Shown: one piece after another, positions 8,070 through 27,589 of the stretch
How positions within the stretch are numbered: position 1 is the first letter of the stretch
How the letters are laid out: every line of letters begins with the position of its first letter
Assembly: GCF_017312725.1 (NCBI RefSeq)
Contig: NZ_BOPO01000041.1
Location: forward strand, 1-46,643
Length of the DNA stretch: 46,643 bases
Direction of reading: 5' to 3'
Origin: Actinocatenispora comari
Lineage (GTDB): Bacteria > Actinomycetota > Actinomycetes > Mycobacteriales > Micromonosporaceae
Translations under genes and position numbers: made by a program
The notes under the pieces: generated by a model
What the model was told of the DNA's origin: nothing
Database searches by the model: none
Seen by the model: only the letters and a program-made list of their open reading frames with translations

Positions 8070-8744
8070 GTGACCGACATCGCGCTGCGGGAGCAGGCAG
8101 CTCCCGCCGAACGGCTGGAAATCGTCCGCGCCGGCCTCGTCGACTACCGCGTCGCGTGGGACGAGCAGCGCCGCATCCAGCAGGCCCGGATCGACGACAC
8201 CGGCCCGGACACGCTGCTGCTGCTGGAGCACCCCAGCGTGTACACGGCGGGCAAGCGCACCGAACCGCTGGACCGTCCGACCGACGGCACCCCGGTCATC
8301 GACGTCGACCGCGGCGGCAAGATCACCTGGCACGGCCCGGGCCAGCTGGTCGGCTACCCCATCATCAAGCTGCCCGACCCGGTCGACGTGATCGCCTTCG
8401 TGCACCGGGTGGAAGACCTGGTCATGTCGGTGTGCGCCGAGTTCGGCGTGCCGACCACCCGGATCACCACCCGCAAGGACATGCGCGGCGGCGTGTGGGT
8501 GCTCGCCGACGACCGTGGCCCGACCCGCAAGATCGCCGCGCTCGGGATGCGCGTCTCGCACGGGGTCACCGAGCACGGCTTCGCGCTCAACTGCAACTCC
8601 GACCTCACCGGGTACGACCGGATCGTGCCGTGCGGCATCCGGGACGCCGGGGTGACCTCGCTGACCTACGAGCTGGGCCGCGAGGTGACGGTCGCCGAGG
8701 TGCTGCCGATGGTCGAGTCCCGGGTGCACATGCTGTTTCCGTGA
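8070..8744 (+). CDS. lipB: Lipoyl(octanoyl) transferase
   Basis: Transfers octanoate from octanoyl-ACP to the lipoyl domains of the 2-oxoacid dehydrogenases and GcvH; cytosolic, first step of lipoate assembly, followed by LipA. 224 residues, normal length. Family signature [17 protein letters not shown] at 81-97, catalytic Lys154 in [10 protein letters not shown] and catalytic Cys188 in CGI. The GTG start has no Shine-Dalgarno, but TAGGCT (8058-8063) ends 6 nt before it, so a leaderless transcript is predicted. lipA, usually adjacent in actinobacteria, is 3 kb away here with aspS and a lipoprotein gene in between. Confidence 0.97.
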
Positions 8745-8785: not shown

Positions 8786-10087
8786 TCACGGCGTCAGGCG
8801 GTGCAGGTCGCGCGGGAACAGCGTGACCTCACGCACGTTCGCGGCGCCGGTGAGCCGGGCCACGAAGCGCTCCAGCCCGATCGCGAACCCGCCGTGCGGC
8901 GGCATCCCGTGCCGGAAGAACTCCAGGTACGACGCGTACGGCTCGATGCTCTCGCCCCGCGCGGTGATCGCCGCCACGTAGTCGGCGTAGCGGTGCAGCC
9001 GCTGCGCCCCGCTGATCAGCTCCAGCCCGCGGAACAGCAGGTCGAAACCGCGCGAGTAGCCGGGCCGGGCCGGGTCCGGGTGGGTGTAGAAGGCGCGCTT
9101 CGCCGTCGGGTAGCCCGTCACGATCAGCCACTCCGAGCCGTGCTCGCGCTCCGCCCAGGCCGACAGCCAGCGCTCGTGCGCCGGCGCCAGGTCCTGCTCG
9201 CCCGACAGGTCCTCGCCGGTCGCGGCGCCGATCAGCTCCAGCGCCTCGGCGAAGTGCACGACGGGCAGCTCGGCCGGTACCTCCGGCAGGGTGATGCCGG
9301 CCGCGGCCACGGCGGCGCCGGCCCGTTCCGCCATCGTGTCGATCATCCCGGCGAACACCTCGCGGATCACGCCGATCACGTCCCGGTGGTCCCGGACGAA
9401 CCCCAGCTCGGCGTCCAGCGAGGTGTACTCGGCCAGGTGCCGGGCGGTGTCGTGCGGCTCGGCCCGGAACACCGGGCCCACCTCGTACACCCGCTCGAAC
9501 ACCCCGACCATCGCCTGCTTGTAGAACTGCGGGCTCTGCGCCAGGTACGCCCGGCGGCCGAAGTAGTCGACCCCGAACACGTTCGCGCCGGACTCGGTCG
9601 CGTAACCGACCAGCTTCGGCGTGTGCACCTCGGTGAAGCCGAGGCCGTCCAGGGTGGCGCGGAACCCGCGCACCCCGGCCGCGGCCAGCTCGAACGGCGC
9701 CCGCTGCCGCGCGTTGCGCAGCGCGAACGGCGCCGCGTCGAGCACCGTGGGCAGGCTCGCCCGCAGCTCCGGCCGGTACAGCTCGAACGGCAGCGGCTCG
9801 GCCGGCTCGGACAGCGTCTCCCAGCCCGGCTCGACGACCTCGACGCCGCCCGGCGCGTCCGGGTTCGCGACCGCGCGGCCGGTCACCTCGACGACCGTCT
9901 CCTCGGGCAGCTGCTCCAGCCGCTGCCGGGCGGTCTGGTCGGCCACCACGACCTGCGCGAGGCCCGCCCGGTCGCGCAGGATCAGGAACGCCACGGACTT
10001 CAGCAGCCGCCGCCGGTGTACCCAGCCGGCCAGCCGAACCTGCTCGCCGGCGTGCGCGGCGAGCTCGGTGGACAGAATGCGTTGCAC
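8786..10087 (-). CDS. aspS: Archaeal-type aspartate-tRNA(Asp/Asn) ligase, probably non-discriminating
   Basis: Class II synthetase charging Asp; 433 residues, the short archaeal-type form without the bacterial GAD insertion. N-terminal OB anticodon domain (about 15-100, VRLAGWVHRRR), motif 2 region YEVGPVFRAEPHDTARH, motif 3 GGFAIGLERFVARL, and C-terminus FPRDLHRLTP. Position 24 is His where the discriminating Thermococcus enzyme has Trp (GWVW), a change known to relax tRNA choice, so it may also make Asp-tRNA(Asn) for an amidotransferase; this is inference from one residue. Of two adjacent GTG codons I choose 10087, since GAGGAGG lies 7 nt upstream. A T-box riboswitch occupies the leader. 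Many actinobacteria also carry a bacterial-type AspRS elsewhere. Confidence 0.92.
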   Translation of the reverse strand: MQRILSTELAAHAGEQVRLAGWVHRRRLLKSVAFLILRDRAGLAQVVVADQTARQRLEQLPEETVVEVTGRAVANPDAPGGVEVVEPGWETLSEPAEPLPFELYRPELRASLPTVLDAAPFALRNARQRAPFELAAAGVRGFRATLDGLGFTEVHTPKLVGYATESGANVFGVDYFGRRAYLAQSPQFYKQAMVGVFERVYEVGPVFRAEPHDTARHLAEYTSLDAELGFVRDHRDVIGVIREVFAGMIDTMAERAGAAVAAAGITLPEVPAELPVVHFAEALELIGAATGEDLSGEQDLAPAHERWLSAWAEREHGSEWLIVTGYPTAKRAFYTHPDPARPGYSRGFDLLFRGLELISGAQRLHRYADYVAAITARGESIEPYASYLEFFRHGMPPHGGFAIGLERFVARLTGAANVREVTLFPRDLHRLTP

Positions 10088-10161
10088 CACAACACCTCCT
10101 CGTACGAATACGCGGACCCCGGTGGGAGCTGCGAGCAGAGGAGAGCGGTGGAGAGAACGCC

Positions 10162-10466
10162 TCGCCGACCAACACGCCGCCTGTCGCAGCCCTGTTGGTG
10201 TGGGCGATGGGGCAAGGTCGCGGTGCCACCACACCTTCGCCGCCACGGGGGCGGCCTTGCGCGGCGCCGGCGGACCGGCATCGCTGGCCCGATCACGGGG
10301 GCCGGCCGGCGGGGCTTGGGGCCGCGGCCCCGGACCGGGACCGTCGCGCCGTTGTTCCCCGCGGCTCGGGAGGGTCTTCACGCGTGGTCCGGAGGCCGCC
10401 GTCACAGCAACAGGCGGCTCTCTCGGCTCCGGGGTCCACGTGCTACTTGGCTCCGTCAGTGCCGTT
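10162..10466 (-). promoter_or_regulatory. T-box riboswitch sensing tRNA-Asp, upstream of aspS
   Basis: All core T-box parts can be read on the minus strand. Antiterminator (10197-10235): A1 helix GGTGTGG/CCACACC (7 bp), the canonical 7-nt bulge TGGCACC (10222-10228), A2 helix GCGA/TCGC, 10-nt loop. The variable T-box base is C, matching the G73 discriminator of tRNA-Asp/Asn. Stem I: AGTA box at 10444-10447, helices CGTGG/CCACG and CCGGAG/CTCCGG, an AGAGAG bulge (10418-10423), distal stem GCCGCC/GGCGGC, and on the 3' side GAA followed by GAC (10374-10376), an Asp specifier codon. A competing hairpin (10162-10207, arms ACCAACA/TGTTGGT plus TCGCC/GGCGA) uses the 3' half of the antiterminator, so the two folds exclude each other. 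Uncharged tRNA-Asp should raise aspS expression. Whether the switch acts on transcription or translation is open: there is no T-run, and CTCCTC near 10140 could pair with the GAGGAG ribosome site. Confidence 0.9.
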
Positions 10467-10473
10467 GCCGCAG

Positions 10474-10504
10474 ACCATAGCGCGCAGGCACCAGGTACCG
10501 GCAA
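10474..10504 (-). promoter_or_regulatory. Candidate aspS promoter
   Basis: TTGCCG (10499-10504) and TATGGT (10474-10479) with a 19-bp spacer on the minus strand. This predicts a start near 10466, immediately before Stem I of the T-box, and a leader of about 380 nt. Confidence 0.55.
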
Positions 10505-10572: not shown

Positions 10573-11460
10573 GTGCGGCGGCGGATGTGCATCGTGGCGG
10601 GGGTACTGGCGCTCGGCGCGCTGGTGGCCACCGGCTGCGGCCCGGACGGTACCCGGTCGGCCACGCACGGCGGCTCGGGTTCGCCGCACCCCGGCTCGTC
10701 CAGTTCGGCACCGGACGCGATCCGCGGGTTCGACTTCGGTTCGGCGGCCTGGCACCACCCGATGCTCAACACCATGCTGCGGGCCCGGACCCAGCGCGGC
10801 GACCGGACCCTGACGCTGCACGACGGCCGGGGCAGGGGCAGCACCCCGGACGGCGGGCCGGTCAGCTGCCGCGGCGCCGGCGCCCCGGTGTACGGCGACA
10901 TCGGCGGCGGCAGCCAGGTGGCCGCCGCCGGGCTGGTCTGCTCCGCCGGGGTCAACGAGTACACCGCGTACTACGTGTGGCGCTGGGACGCGGCGAAGCG
11001 CACCGCGGTGCAGGACGACCAGCCGCTGGTGGTGGGCGAACACTGCGGCTCCGACGTGCGTACGGTCGCCTACCGGGGCCACGCGTTCGCGATCACCGTC
11101 GGGCTCGGCAGGCTGGACAGCAGCTGCGCGGACTCCGACCGCGGCCGCACCCCGTACAGCTACACGGTGGTCGAGCGGGACGGCTTCCTGATGCGCAGCA
11201 CGCCGGAGCAGGGCGCGGTGCGCGAGTGCGCGCTGAACAACGGCGACATGCACCAGCTCAGGGGCGTCACCCTGTACGCGGACCGGGACGCCTCCTCGCC
11301 CGTGGTGTACCGGCCGAAGGGGCTCGCGACGCTGTGGACGGTCGGCGGGCACGACTACTACGAGTCGACCGACGACCTGACCGGCAAGAAGACCCGGTGG
11401 CAGTTCGTCCGGGCCAACCTGCCGCACGGCTACGTCTGCGGCTACCGCCAGGTGGGCTGA
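10573..11460 (+). CDS. Putative secreted lipoprotein, function unknown
   Basis: A 295-residue protein with a basic start, hydrophobic stretch and relaxed lipobox VATGC (Cys22), then a Gly/Ser linker, pointing to a lipid-anchored extracytoplasmic protein. The mature part has several further Cys residues (for example CRGAG, VCSAG, EHCGS, SSCAD, RECAL, YVCGY) that could form disulphides. The C-terminal 70 residues (LRGVTLYAD ... GYVCGY) look like a small SH3-like beta domain, a weak impression. A TAGGTT (10525-10530) may be its -10. The gene sits between the T-box promoter and lipA and is not part of the conserved lip block, so it may have been inserted together with aspS. I do not recognise a named family. 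Confidence 0.75.
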   Translation: MRRRMCIVAGVLALGALVATGCGPDGTRSATHGGSGSPHPGSSSSAPDAIRGFDFGSAAWHHPMLNTMLRARTQRGDRTLTLHDGRGRGSTPDGGPVSCRGAGAPVYGDIGGGSQVAAAGLVCSAGVNEYTAYYVWRWDAAKRTAVQDDQPLVVGEHCGSDVRTVAYRGHAFAITVGLGRLDSSCADSDRGRTPYSYTVVERDGFLMRSTPEQGAVRECALNNGDMHQLRGVTLYADRDASSPVVYRPKGLATLWTVGGHDYYESTDDLTGKKTRWQFVRANLPHGYVCGYRQVG

Positions 11461-11642: not shown

Positions 11643-12605
11643 GTGACCGTGGTTCAGCCAGAGGGCCGACGACTTCTGCGCATCGAGGCCCGCAACTCCG
11701 CAACGCCCATCGAGCGGAAGCCGCCGTGGATCAAGGTGCGCGCCAAGATGGGCCCCGAGTACACGGATCTGAAGGGCCTGGTGAAGCGCGAGGGCCTGCA
11801 CACCGTGTGCGAGGAGGCCGGCTGCCCCAACATCTACGAGTGTTGGGAGGACCGCGAGGCCACCTTCCTCATCGGCGGCGACCAGTGCACCCGCCGGTGC
11901 GACTTCTGCCAGATCGACACCGGCCGGCCGGCCGAGTTCGACGCCGACGAGCCGCGCCGAGTGGCCGACTCGGTCGCCACCATGGGCCTGAAGTACGCGA
12001 CGATCACCGGCGTGGCCCGCGACGACCTGCCCGACGGCGGCGCCTGGCTCTACGCCGAGACGGTCCGGCAGATCCACAAGCACGTGCCCGGCTGCGGCGT
12101 CGAGCTGCTGATCCCCGACTTCAACGCCAAGCCCGACCAGCTGGCCGAGGTGTTCTCGTCCCGGCCCGAGGTGCTCGCGCACAACATCGAGACGGTGCCG
12201 CGCATCTTCAAGCGGATCCGCCCCGGCTTCCGGTACGAGCGGTCGCTGGAGGTGATCACCAAGGCCCGGCAGGACGGCCTGGTCACCAAGTCGAACCTGA
12301 TCCTCGGCATGGGCGAGGAGTTCGACGAGGTCGTGCAGGCGATGCGTGACCTGTTCGACGCCGGCTGCGAGCTGCTCACCATCACCCAGTACCTGCGCCC
12401 GTCGGTGCGGCACCACCCGATCGACCGGTGGGTCAAGCCGGAGGAGTTCGTGGCGCTGCGCGAGGAGGCCGAGCGGATCGGCTTCGCCGGCGTGCTGGCC
12501 GGACCGCTGGTGCGCTCGTCGTACCGGGCGGGTCGGCTGTTCCGGCAGGCCAAGACGGCGCGCGGCGAGGCGCTGCCGCCGGAGCTCGCGATCCAGTCCG
12601 TCTGA
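11643..12605 (+). CDS. lipA: Lipoyl synthase, radical SAM
   Basis: Inserts two sulphurs into protein-bound octanoyl groups, completing lipoate made via LipB. 320 residues. Auxiliary cluster ligands Cys56, Cys61, Cys67 (CX4CX5C) and the radical SAM triad Cys82, Cys86, Cys89 (CX3CX2C, CTRRCDFC) are all present, as is the C-terminal RSSYRAG with the serine ligand (Ser292/293). The GTG start lacks a ribosome site; TAGGCT (11630-11635) ends 7 nt before it, so leaderless expression is predicted. It faces the membrane protein at 12628 with a 22-nt gap. Confidence 0.98.
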
Positions 12606-21618: not shown

Positions 21619-23772
21619 TCAGCGCCGGCCCTCGCCCGGCCCGGGGTGGCAGTGCGACCAGGCAGTCAGCGGTGCGGTGGCCTTCAGCACCATCTCGTCG
21701 AACTCGTCGGCCGGGTCGGAGTCCAGGACGATCGCGCCGCCGGCACCGACGTGCAGCTCGTCCCCGGCACGCACCGCGGTACGGATGACGATGCTCAGGT
21801 CCGCGCCACCGGTGAGGCCGAAGTAGCCGAGCGCGCCGGAGTAGACGCCGCGAGCGGCCGGTTCGAGCCGGTCCAGGATCTCCATGGTGCGCTGCTTCGG
21901 GGCTCCGGTCATCGAGCCGCCCGGGAAGCAGTGCCGCACGCAGTCGACCGCGTCGACCTCCGGCCGCAGCTGCCCGGACACCGTGGACACCAGCTGGTGC
22001 ATCGTCTGGTACGACTCGACCGCGAGGTACCGGTCGACCGAGACCGAGCCGACCCGGCACACCTGGCCGAGGTCGTTGCGCAGCAGGTCGACGATCATCA
22101 GGTTCTCGGCCCGGGTCTTCGCGTCGCCGGCCAGCCGGGCGGCGAGTTCGGCGTCCCGGGCCGGATCGGGGTGGCGCGGGGCAGTGCCCTTGATCGGCCT
22201 GGTCTCGACCCGGCCGGCCGGCGTCACCCGCAAGAACCGCTCCGGCGACGAGCCGTACACGCAGACCCGGCCGATGCGCAGCAGCGCCGCGTACGGAGCC
22301 GGGTTGAGTCGCCGCAGCCGGCGGTACAGGGCGAGATCGTCGCCGTCGTAGCGCACCCGGGCGGCGTCGGTCAGGCAGATCTCGTAGCTCTCGCCGCGCC
22401 GAAGCTCGCGCTGGCACTCGCCGATCCGGTCCAGGTACGCCGCCCGGTCCAGCGCGAGATGCGGTACCGGATCGCACGCCGAACCGGCGGGTTCGTCGAG
22501 GGTGGCAGCAGGGGGCGCGTCGAGGCGCGCTGCCGCCAGGGCGGCGAGCCGGGCGCTGGTCGCGGTGACCCAGGCGCGGGCGGCGCCGTCGTCGTCGCGG
22601 TACAGGGCGATCAGGTGGGTGACGCCGCGCTCGTGGTCGACGGCGACGAGCCGGTCGGTGAAGATCCAGCAGGAGTCCGGCATCGGGGAACGGTGCGCGG
22701 CGGCGGCAGCGCAGTCGGCCTTCAGCTCGTAGCCGAACCAGCCGACGTACCCGCAGTCGAAGTCGAACGGCAGGCCGGCGTCCGCGACCCGCCGCCGCGC
22801 GAGCTGGCGGCGCAGCACGTCGAACACGGTGCCCGGCTCGAGCCGCGATCCGGCGGCGGACCGTACCGTCACTCCCGCGTCGCCGACCCGGTAGGTCAGC
22901 GCCTCCGCCAGCGGGCCGGACGCGTCGCCGAGGAACGAGAACCGGGACAGGCCCGGCTCGACCCGGCTGCTGTCCAGCCAGAAGCAGTCCGGCGAGCCGG
23001 CGAACAGCGTCTCGAACGCCGTCCCGGTGTCCACCGCCACCGGCAGCTCCGCCCGGTGCAGGCGCAGTCCCGCCGTACCCTGCAGCGGTCCGGCCACCTT
23101 GCCCGGCCCGGCGGAGGGACCGGGCGCAGCCGGGTACCCGACCGGCGCGGGGTGGACGGCCGAGCCGGACGGCCCGCTTCGCCGGCGGTGCCGCGGGGCG
23201 GCGGAGAGGTCGCGGAAGTTGGTCAGCAGCTCGCGGCCGAAGGTCGAGGCGACCGACTCCGGGTGGAACTGGACTCCCCAGCGCGGCCGGTCGCGGTGCC
23301 GGATCGCCATCACGACGCCGTCGTCCGCCCACGCGGTCGCGAGGTAGTCGGGTGGCAGCGGCTCGGCGACGCACAGCGAGTGGTAGCGGACCGCGACGAA
23401 CTCCGCCGGTACGCCGGTGAACAGCTCGTCGCCGCGGTGGGTGATGCGGGCGAGCCGGCCGTGTTCCGGCCGCGGCGCCGGTTCTACGGTGCCGCCGGAC
23501 AGCCAGGCGAGCGCCTGGTGGCCGAGGCACACGCCGAGCACCGGCAGGTCGGTACCGGCCAGCAGCGCGGGCACCAGTCCGAGGTCGCGGGCCACGGCGG
23601 GGTGTCCGGGGCCGGGCGAGACGACGATGTTGTCGAGGCCGGCGAGGTCCAGGGCGGCCAGCGCGTCGTCGTCGTTGGCGAGTACCAGCGGGTCGGCGCC
23701 GTTGACCTCGGCGAGCAGCTGAAACAGGTTGAACGTGTACGAGTCGTGGTTGTCGACCAACAGCGTGCGCAC
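21619..23772 (-). CDS. Fused aminodeoxychorismate synthase (PabA-PabB type)
   Basis: A 717-residue fusion: glutamine amidotransferase (1-190; catalytic Cys82 in GVCLGHQ, His170 and Glu172 in FHPES) followed by a chorismate-binding synthase (about 240-717; KTRAENLMIVDLLRNDLG, CFPGGSMTGAPK). Lys528 in PIKGT is the residue that marks 4-amino-4-deoxychorismate synthase; anthranilate synthases have Ala there. The product feeds p-aminobenzoate for folate or a secondary metabolite. Of two adjacent GTG codons I take 23772, 5 nt after GGGGAG. Separated from the 2-MIB operon by 189 bp with a strong terminator, so probably unrelated to it. Confidence 0.93.
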   Translation of the reverse strand: MRTLLVDNHDSYTFNLFQLLAEVNGADPLVLANDDDALAALDLAGLDNIVVSPGPGHPAVARDLGLVPALLAGTDLPVLGVCLGHQALAWLSGGTVEPAPRPEHGRLARITHRGDELFTGVPAEFVAVRYHSLCVAEPLPPDYLATAWADDGVVMAIRHRDRPRWGVQFHPESVASTFGRELLTNFRDLSAAPRHRRRSGPSGSAVHPAPVGYPAAPGPSAGPGKVAGPLQGTAGLRLHRAELPVAVDTGTAFETLFAGSPDCFWLDSSRVEPGLSRFSFLGDASGPLAEALTYRVGDAGVTVRSAAGSRLEPGTVFDVLRRQLARRRVADAGLPFDFDCGYVGWFGYELKADCAAAAAHRSPMPDSCWIFTDRLVAVDHERGVTHLIALYRDDDGAARAWVTATSARLAALAAARLDAPPAATLDEPAGSACDPVPHLALDRAAYLDRIGECQRELRRGESYEICLTDAARVRYDGDDLALYRRLRRLNPAPYAALLRIGRVCVYGSSPERFLRVTPAGRVETRPIKGTAPRHPDPARDAELAARLAGDAKTRAENLMIVDLLRNDLGQVCRVGSVSVDRYLAVESYQTMHQLVSTVSGQLRPEVDAVDCVRHCFPGGSMTGAPKQRTMEILDRLEPAARGVYSGALGYFGLTGGADLSIVIRTAVRAGDELHVGAGGAIVLDSDPADEFDEMVLKATAPLTAWSHCHPGPGEGRR

Positions 23773-26167: not shown

Positions 26168-27589
26168 TCAGGCCGCGGGCGCGCCGAGCTCGGCGTCCTC
26201 CAGCACGCCGAGCGCGTCGGGTACCAGCACCGCGGCCGAGAAGTACGCGCTGACCAGGTAGCCGATGATCGCCTGCTCGTCGATGCCCATGAACCGCACG
26301 TTGAGCCCCGGCTCGTACTCCTCCGGGATCGACGCCGGGCGAAGCCCCACCACGCCTTGGTCCGCCTCACCGGTACGCATGGCGAGGATCGACGAGGTGT
26401 GGTGCTGCGACACCGGGATCTTGCCGCACGGGAAGATCGGCACGCCGCGCCAGGACGGCACCCGGTGCCCGTCCACCTCGACCGGGTCCGGGTAGATGCC
26501 GCGCTTGGTGCACTCCCGGCCGAACGCGGCGATCGCCTTGGGGTGGGCCAAAAACAGCCTGGTGCTGCGCCGCATGCACAGCAGCTCGTCCAGGTCGTCC
26601 GGGGTCGGCGGGCCGGTGCGGGTGCGGATGCGCTGCTTGAGGTCCGCCTGGTGCAGCAGCCCGAACTCGGCGTTGTTGACCAGCTCGTACTCCTGCCGTT
26701 CGCGCAGCGCCTCGATGGTCAGCCGCAGCTGCTGCTGCGTCTGGTTCATCGGGTCGTTGTACAGGTCGGCCACCCGGCTGTGCACCCGCAGCACCGTCTG
26801 CGCCACCGACAGCTCGTACTCCCGCGGCCGGGTCTCGTAGTCGGCGAACGTACCGGGCAGCGTCGCCTCGCCGGTGTGCCCGGACGACAGCTCGATGTCC
26901 GCCTCACCATGCTTGTTGTGCGGCAACGAGTCCCGCGCCCCGGCCGAGTCGGCGGCGAGGTGCTCGCGCAACGCCGGCGACGCGTCGGACAGTTGCGCGA
27001 ACGCGGTCACCGGCAGGGTCAGTACGGTGCAGGCGGTCGCGGCCCGGGCGGTGAACTCCCAGATCGTGTCCGGCCGGGTCAGCGCCTCGGCGCCGAAGTA
27101 GTCGCCGTCGCCGAGCACGCCGAGCACCGCCTGGTCGCCGTACTTGCCGGTGCCGATCTTGGTGACCTTGCCGTGCGCGATCAGGAACACCGCCTCGGCC
27201 GGGTTGCCGAAGTCGGCGAGCACCTCGCCGGCGGAGTACTCGTGCTGCTCGCACCGCTGGGCCAGCGCCTGCAGCACCTCGTCGTCGTCGAAGCCGCGCA
27301 GCGCCGGCAGTTCGGTCAGCTCCCGCGGCACCACCTCGACCCGGGCGCCGACGTTGGAGAACGTCAGCCGGTTGTCGCCGACCACGTAGGTCAGCCGGCG
27401 GTTGACCCGGTAGGTACCGCTGGTGACGCCGATCCACGGCAGTCGCCGCTGCAGCCAGCGCGACGAGATGCCCTGCATCTGCGGTTCGGACTTGGTGGTG
27501 GTGGCGAGATTGCGGGCCGCCACCGTGCTGAGGCTGCGGGTGCGGTCCTCGTCGGTCTGTGCCTGCTCTGGCTGGATCGTCTCGGTCAC
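26168..27589 (-). CDS. Family 2B encapsulin shell protein with cNMP-binding domain (EshA-like)
   Basis: A 473-residue HK97-fold capsid protein, the builder of a protein nanocompartment. N-terminal arm and first part of the shell fold (1-95), an inserted cyclic-nucleotide-binding domain (about 97-200; [22 protein letters not shown], phosphate cassette [19 protein letters not shown]), then the remaining HK97 fold (about 225-473; [42 protein letters not shown]). The family was earlier annotated as Crp-type regulator, but there is no helix-turn-helix. The cassette is altered (GAEAL instead of GEXAL, Arg displaced), so ligand choice may differ. Directly followed by the cyclase and methyltransferase, its expected cargo. 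The upstream ribosome site is weak and no clear promoter is seen in the 153-bp gap. Confidence 0.93.

Follow-up and report, generated by a model that had tools for sequence, protein, structure and literature searches.

We identified, on the minus strand of a 46,643-nucleotide contig of Actinocatenispora comari (NZ_BOPO01000041.1, referred to as the window), an element at 10162-10504 that is a T-box riboswitch by the sequence features tested, and it very probably reads the charging of tRNA-Asp and controls aspS2, the gene of a second, archaeal-type and probably non-discriminating aspartyl-tRNA synthetase (AspRS). A sequence-only reading had proposed a tRNA-Asp T-box before an archaeal-type aspS, and both parts of this proposal are borne out: Stem I matches the Rfam T-box family RF00230 with 39.8 bits, and the gene product matches NF003483 (NCBIfam aspartate--tRNA(Asn) ligase) with 536.6 bits against a cut-off of 353. 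The landmarks that it had named, namely, AGTA, AGAGAG, GAA followed by GAC, A1/A2, TGGCACC and the competing hairpin, are all present on the minus strand at the coordinates read.

The promoter region lies at 10474-10504 on the minus strand, and had been read as standing at the right distance. Its -10 element TATGGT (10474-10479) is supported, since the pattern TANNNT has 79 placements over 79 leaders at 13-17 nt 5' of GAxGGAG and zero at the other distances from 8 to 39 nt, while the doubtful -35 element TTGCCG (10499-10504; spacing 19 nt) finds no support, the scan giving 0 promoter-like sites by its -35/-10 rule. Stem I has the canonical long form (10364-10462), with CCAAGTA on the 5' side of the specifier loop (10444-10450; AGTA at 10444-10447) and with the AGAGAG bulge (10418-10423), which together with the distal loop TGTTGCTGTGA and the 5' strand of the intervening helix occupies 10402-10424. 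By analogy with the long Stem I in the accessible part of PMC7583486, the bulge and the distal loop would form the tRNA-elbow-binding module; with both present, Stem I in the window is not truncated as in the class II (translational, actinobacterial) T-box. GAA (10377-10379) is followed by the specifier codon GAC (Asp, 10374-10376), and the region of Stem II and Stem IIA/B (10286-10365) was assigned by eye from the sequence. For Stem III, GCCGCC-CCCGT-GGCGGC (10239-10255), 84 of the 112 leaders have an exact upstream reverse complement of the 5-nt arm that ends 1 nt 5' of GAARG, whereas control arms ending 6-11 nt 5' of GAARG have one in 19-22. The antiterminator or antisequestrator (10197-10235) consists of A1 (GGTGTGG, 10229-10235, with CCACACC, 10197-10203), the T-box bulge TGGCACC (10222-10228) and A2 (GCGA with TCGC, within 10197-10235). 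A 17-bp hairpin (10162-10207; -25.9 kcal/mol, with no U-tract after it) takes the A2' strand and part of A1', and is the off-state competitor according to folding prediction. The distance from the T-box to the aspS2 start, a GTG at 10088-10090 or 10085-10087, is about 130-135 nt. The folding energy of the whole 411-nt leader is no better than that of shuffled sequences (z -0.30).

The sequence-only reading had looked to a covariance model and to covariation among orthologous leaders as checks. The RF00230 match to Stem I (E 2.7e-7 when a 701-base stretch is searched with all Rfam families, 7.3e-7 for the whole genome) lies below the gathering score, and so does the weak match to the antiterminator (10200-10257; 14.1 bits, E 1.1); thus, at the gathering level (93 bits, a threshold of the library and no structural feature) the Rfam search returned no T-box. 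Compared with the Rfam consensus, the specifier loop in the window lacks one base. The cut-off seems ill-suited to this phylum, because the ileS T-box of the same genome (L002, G000:C8:76654-76882) likewise scores below it with 37.4 bits, as do six other actinobacterial T-boxes (38.6-69.8 bits; L134 gave no match). Among 20 further aspS2 leader stretches, 12 match RF00230 (E <= 0.01) with sub-cut-off scores of 27.7-52.9 bits and 8 have no match. A model built on 38 leaders gives Stem I in the window 101.3 bits, a score that is not independent because the window belongs to these 38 sequences. Elsewhere in the window, 27045-27531 on the plus strand matches Rfam Sernc350 (a Saccharopolyspora antisense RNA) with 174 bits, a match that a conserved protein-coding gene on the opposite strand might explain by itself.

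Compensatory changes occur both in Stem I and in A1/A2. The Stem I alignment holds 38 of 69 segments from 76 leaders, near copies and the long-insert leaders L065 and L074 being left out; 7 of the 76 leaders gave no segment under the pattern used. In these 38 sequences 94.8% of the cells are paired (39-43% in slid versions), two-sided changes occur at 16 of the 25 pairs, and double-change cells number 141 against a shuffled mean of 52.5. In the antisequestrator alignment (45 sequences, 30 distinct) 98.6% of the A1/A2 cells are paired (39-63% in slid versions), double-change cells number 33 against 11.2 in shuffles, and 5 pairs carry double changes, a count equalled by 11 of 500 shuffles; for both helices these controls are lenient, because the sequences are relatives of one another and also served for drawing the structure.

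The gene aspS2 (8786-10090, minus strand) encodes 434 aa, and its product is, by sequence, an archaeal-type AspRS, in which no match to the GAD domain was found, the housekeeping AspRS of the same genome having one. Since the genome also carries this bacterial AspRS, aspS2 codes for a second one. The closest solved relative of its product is PDB 1n9w (394 bits), which, like 3kfu, we take to be the AspRS2 of Thermus thermophilus, and for which we know of no relation to a T-box. The enzyme shares H25 and P80 with 1n9w, whereas 3nel, presumably the AspRS of T. kodakarensis, has W and K there; over 96 rows these positions are H in 95 and P in 96. We take H and P at positions 25 and 80 to be marks of non-discriminating AspRS, and judged by its sequence the second AspRS is probably non-discriminating. 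No AsnRS above the cut-off was found in the window genome and gatB was found; therefore, both AspRS enzymes probably supply tRNA-Asp as well as tRNA-Asn. On its two sides aspS2 has a gene for an LplA/LipB-like lipoyl ligase (8070-8744, plus strand) and one for a lipoyl-synthase-like radical SAM protein (11643-12605, plus strand); the frame at 10573-11460 beside aspS2 has no Pfam match.

A tRNA-Asp(GUC) was found by an Rfam tRNA search of the genome, 30 of whose 48 matches were retrieved; its discriminator, read from the sequence, is G73, which the C of UGGC fits, as had been anticipated. At the variable position of UGGN, 100 of the 112 leaders have C and 12 have U, and either base can pair with G73. 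None of the 48 Rfam tRNA matches lies on the window contig; ARAGORN calls a tRNA-Gly(acc) at 22840-22926 (minus strand) and a tRNA-Val(gac) at 23669-23758 (plus strand) there, both probably false. The frame in which GAC is read is the +0 frame of TBDB, counted from the helix side according to the available text of PMC7778990. The base after the specifier, usually a purine, is C in the window, and A in 50, C in 42 and G in 1 of 93 leaders. A leader from another family of the class (L135, G372:C45) has the same scaffold with a UCC (Ser) specifier, and stands before a second SerRS (TIGR00414, 362.6 bits; the housekeeping SerRS beside it has 443.3 bits). This natural swap supports the GAC reading frame and indicates that the specifier follows the gene. 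In L134 (G206:C1), Stem I with UCC is kept and no T-box bulge was seen behind it, so that it looks like a decayed remnant of a Ser T-box.

That the leader senses another tRNA instead, for example tRNA-Thr (ACC, one base later) or tRNA-Asn, is very unlikely. The idea draws on the related ileS leaders, which have one extra base between GAA and the specifier, so that counting from GAA would give ACA or ACC, and on the enzyme itself, which probably charges tRNA-Asn too. However, counting from the helix side, as TBDB does, yields GAC, the SerRS leader reads UCC in the same frame, reduced forms of Stem I retain GAC amid varying surrounding bases, and the gene downstream encodes an AspRS. The ACC (Thr) specifier was set aside on these four grounds, and we keep tRNA-Asp as the ligand.

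Actinocatenispora rupis provides the closest named relative of AspRS2, with 88% identity, in a comparison from which the records closest to the window may have been excluded. Within the family Micromonosporaceae, 112 of 150 sampled genomes have an aspS2 orthologue at E <= 1e-90, and 148 of the 150 have the bacterial AspRS; as the two genomes without the latter (G025 and G063) also lack aspS2, all 112 have both enzymes. In a class sample of 345 genomes an orthologue (E <= 1e-80) is present in 20. We collected 114 upstream regions, comprising the window, 29 family loci, 46 of 80 homologue loci and 38 further stretches. The 46 are the actinobacterial ones, without L039, which duplicates L012, and without 33 loci from clostridia or spirochaetes; 7 of the 38 (L182-L188) were chosen since their genomes had no Stem I match, and L069 and L198 have an identical sequence and are both counted. 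The specifier and the bulge had been expected to be conserved upstream of orthologues, and they are: 112 of the 114 leaders have the T-box bulge behind an A1 strand, and 112 have the GAC specifier, 93 by pattern, including L080 with a shortened upper Stem I, and 19 by eye, namely, two long forms (L207 and L216) and 17 reduced forms. Bulge and GAC are both missing from L053 and L205. The antisequestrator model matches 37 of the 38 further stretches, one of which, L198, equals L069 and hence is part of the model's 45 sequences.

The 20 class genomes with an orthologue divide into 13 with a Stem I match and 7 with an antisequestrator (L182-L188); in these 7, Stem I is a hairpin in 6, by eye, and lost at the contig end in 1. 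Conversely, of 48 genomes with a Stem I match, 13 have aspS2, and L128, L134 and L135 account for three. In the remaining 32 the match scores 31.8-58.2 bits, and each of the 14 loci inspected among them (L138-L151) shows an IleRS-like frame by eye. In L128 (G330:C1), a divergent AspRS (NF003483, 481 bits) lies behind a GAC T-box with a long Stem I. The Asp-specific T-box class, which has one Ser offshoot, is widespread, sub-cut-off in Rfam wherever scored, and tied to second synthetase copies.

Stem I varies greatly in size among these leaders. By eye, 17 of the 114 leaders have it reduced to a small hairpin that still carries GAC, and in the shortest one (L183), GGAG-CAGACA-CUCC, the lower helix closes immediately on the codon. 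Apart from the divergent L128, the actinobacterial AspRS2 proteins form one clade (100/99) in a tree of 59 enzymes, which sets them off from the clostridial ones. On the best tree the label 'short Stem I', which was assigned by eye and pools several forms, changes four times, and the well-supported branches force at least three changes. With the same codon under everything from a full Stem I to a bare hairpin, the orthologous leaders constitute a natural series on the role of the elbow module in translational T-boxes.

In many Micromonosporaceae relatives, pairing between the 3' strand of A1 and the Shine-Dalgarno (SD) sequence, as modelled, points to control at translation initiation. In the 29 leaders L010-L038, the A1 3' strand continues as ACCUCC in 18 and as ACCUCU in 7, complementary to the GGAGGU of the SD, and elsewhere the tail of A1' and the SD change together, GCACUCCC going with GGGAGUGC in L067 and CACCUCC with GGAGGUG in L072. 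Over 112 leaders the fit of the A1' tail to its own SD is 14.12 against 12.65 when permuted (maximum 13.20 in 300 permutations), a figure inflated by clade structure; in the window, L010 and L011 the fit is low, 11. The exposure of the SD was calculated for 74 of 76 leaders (L024, without an SD by the rule used, and L053 being left out), and of the 25 Micromonosporaceae leaders with a value (L013-L038), 20 show a rise of 0.17 or more when A1 is formed. Hardly any modelled change is seen in the Nonomuraea leaders, whose SD is closed by a local hairpin in either state. The mean change over the 74 leaders is 0.12 against 0.02 in shuffles, with 47 above the shuffled mean, from which a single translational mechanism for all leaders does not follow.

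For the window species itself, we somewhat favour translation as the level of control, with transcription a distinctly weaker candidate and any other level improbable. The SD, in the window AGGAGG (10095-10100), lies 95-101 nt from A1' in the window, L010 and L011, against 19-60 nt elsewhere, the window having about 75 nt extra, and the T-box core lies 139-145 nt from the start in these three, against about 60-120 nt in the other actinobacterial loci compared. The long distance had been taken as a hint of transcriptional control, a view that finds no support, as the distance is peculiar to the window and two close relatives and a scan of the window leader found no terminator-like site. Modelled SD exposure in the on and off states is 0.02 and 0.01 in the window, i.e., closed in both, 0.24 and 0.17 in L010, and 0.33 and 0.00 in L011; a simpler calculation gives changes of 0.02, -0.10 and -0.29, respectively, and 0.01 in L012, from A. 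rupis, the fourth Actinocatenispora. A candidate anti-SD, CTCTCCTC, is located at 10138-10145, and a candidate long-range helix (10125-10192) of GGGCTGCGA (10184-10192) with TCGCAGCTC (within 10125-10134) would exclude the competing hairpin. A spacer helix of GGGCTGCGA with CGCAGC is predicted in the ON folds of L010 and L011 and is absent from the folds of the window, in whose sequence it can be made out by eye only. A relay in which such a helix frees or binds the anti-SD is possible.

The same sensor might instead have a transcriptional output in the window species, with the hairpin at 10162-10207 acting as a terminator without a U-tract, or with Rho acting at a C-rich stretch exposed in the off state; we regard this as possible and clearly the less probable of the two outputs. 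It would account for a 17-bp hairpin that is identical in three Actinocatenispora genomes (those of the window, L010 and L011) although by eye the following spacer has diverged, that takes A2' and part of A1' as T-box terminators do, and that is predicted to be stable (-25.9 kcal/mol), and it would fit the unchanged SD exposure of the window in the model. However, besides the lack of a terminator-like site, there is no U-run 3' of the hairpin, the bases that follow being GGCGTTCTCTCC, GGCACCTCTCCA and GGCGCTCCTCAC, and the layout of L012 is the short one, in whose fold CACACCTC faces GAGGTG, though its modelled SD change is small. The insert before the start codon could also be seen as a sign that the T-box has decayed and regulation is lost, a view to which the weak Rfam score of the 3' part and the decayed look of the Ser relative L134 may be added. 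We give it scarcely more credit than the sensing of another tRNA, as none of the named functional positions is damaged, and hardly any change in Stem I or A1/A2 separates the window, L010 and L011. A working tRNA-Asp T-box, most likely with a translational output, remains our preferred reading.

T-boxes before ileS in Actinobacteria were reportedly described by Sherwood in 2015, and T-boxes before archaeal-type aspS in Clostridia are said to have been described by Saad in 2012. The clostridial leaders resemble ours in placing the same enzyme family under T-box control, but they act in the transcriptional mode and their specifier is AAC (Asn) in 4 and GAC in 1 of the five read by eye (L086, L093, L095, L099 and L104), which were chosen for a visible T-box core that many other clostridial and spirochaete loci lack. 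In ten clostridial or spirochaete aspS loci no T-box was found at the Rfam gathering level, and five of the ten match at the E-value level. The aspS2 T-box shares the phylum, Stem I and the T-box bulge with the actinobacterial ileS T-boxes, one of which stands before ileS in the same genome; however, the latter have an Ile specifier and precede a housekeeping gene, and the ileS leaders read have one base more in the specifier loop than the aspS2 leader.

We found no report of an Asp T-box in Actinobacteria in the literature searched. In the accessible parts of the papers, actinobacterial T-boxes are placed before ileS only, where an SD-sequestering hairpin replaces the terminator in the translational form (PMC1262725), his genes are also mentioned (PMC9413887), and 12 of 19 actinobacterial genomes are credited with 32 T-boxes, of which Symbiobacterium has 18 and among which an Asp entry is possible (PMC2494555). 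As far as its available text goes, PMC4206432 describes an extra AspRS in Actinomycetales and names no T-box for it. The same limit applies to TBDB, whose class II model was built on Actinobacteria and whose Asp entries, which may include some of these leaders, share the GAC specifier of the aspS2 leaders in a fraction of 0.94 (PMC7778990), and to the account of translational T-boxes, of which few have a long Stem I, most being intermediate or ultrashort, and whose Stem I is mostly without the elbow-binding module that Stem I in the window has (PMC7583486). The suggestion that an Asp T-box would be unusual in this phylum may stand for the accessible literature, but not for the genomes, where it is common, aspS2 being present in most of the sampled family. 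As far as could be seen, the T-box target for the phylum, its spread and the Stem I series are new; the kind of switch is not.

As for how the leader would work, we infer tRNA binding, the direction of switching, the level of control and the purpose as follows. The GAC specifier would pair with the GUC anticodon of tRNA-Asp, the AGAGAG bulge and the distal loop would dock the tRNA elbow, and an uncharged G73-CCA end would pair with UGGC and stabilise the A1/A2 helix, which would turn aspS2 on; once tRNA-Asp is charged, A1/A2 would give way to the competing structure and aspS2 would be off. In many relatives the competitor would be the helix of the A1 3' strand with the SD sequence, giving control of translation initiation; in the window species it would be the 17-bp hairpin, and the signal would most likely reach the SD through the spacer. 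A tRNA-Asp T-box on a second AspRS is what one would expect of a reserve enzyme brought in when the first no longer charges enough tRNA, and AspRS2 may well be such a reserve for the housekeeping AspRS.

We tentatively suggest, as an idea that may well prove wrong, that Actinobacteria have a portable tRNA-triggered 'spare synthetase' module, in which one T-box scaffold with an exchanged specifier guards duplicate synthetases (Asp widely, Ser once among the leaders examined). When starvation or a natural product aimed at AspRS lowers charging by the housekeeping enzyme, the module would bring in an unlike enzyme of lower sensitivity, and within this orthologous family Stem I would have shrunk repeatedly, from the full form to a hairpin of some 14 bases, without loss of codon and T-box. 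Related soil bacteria, which have this switch in front of the same gene, are probably able to switch on a spare AspRS once the main one no longer suffices, which would provide a testable reason why many such soil bacteria keep two unlike AspRS enzymes.
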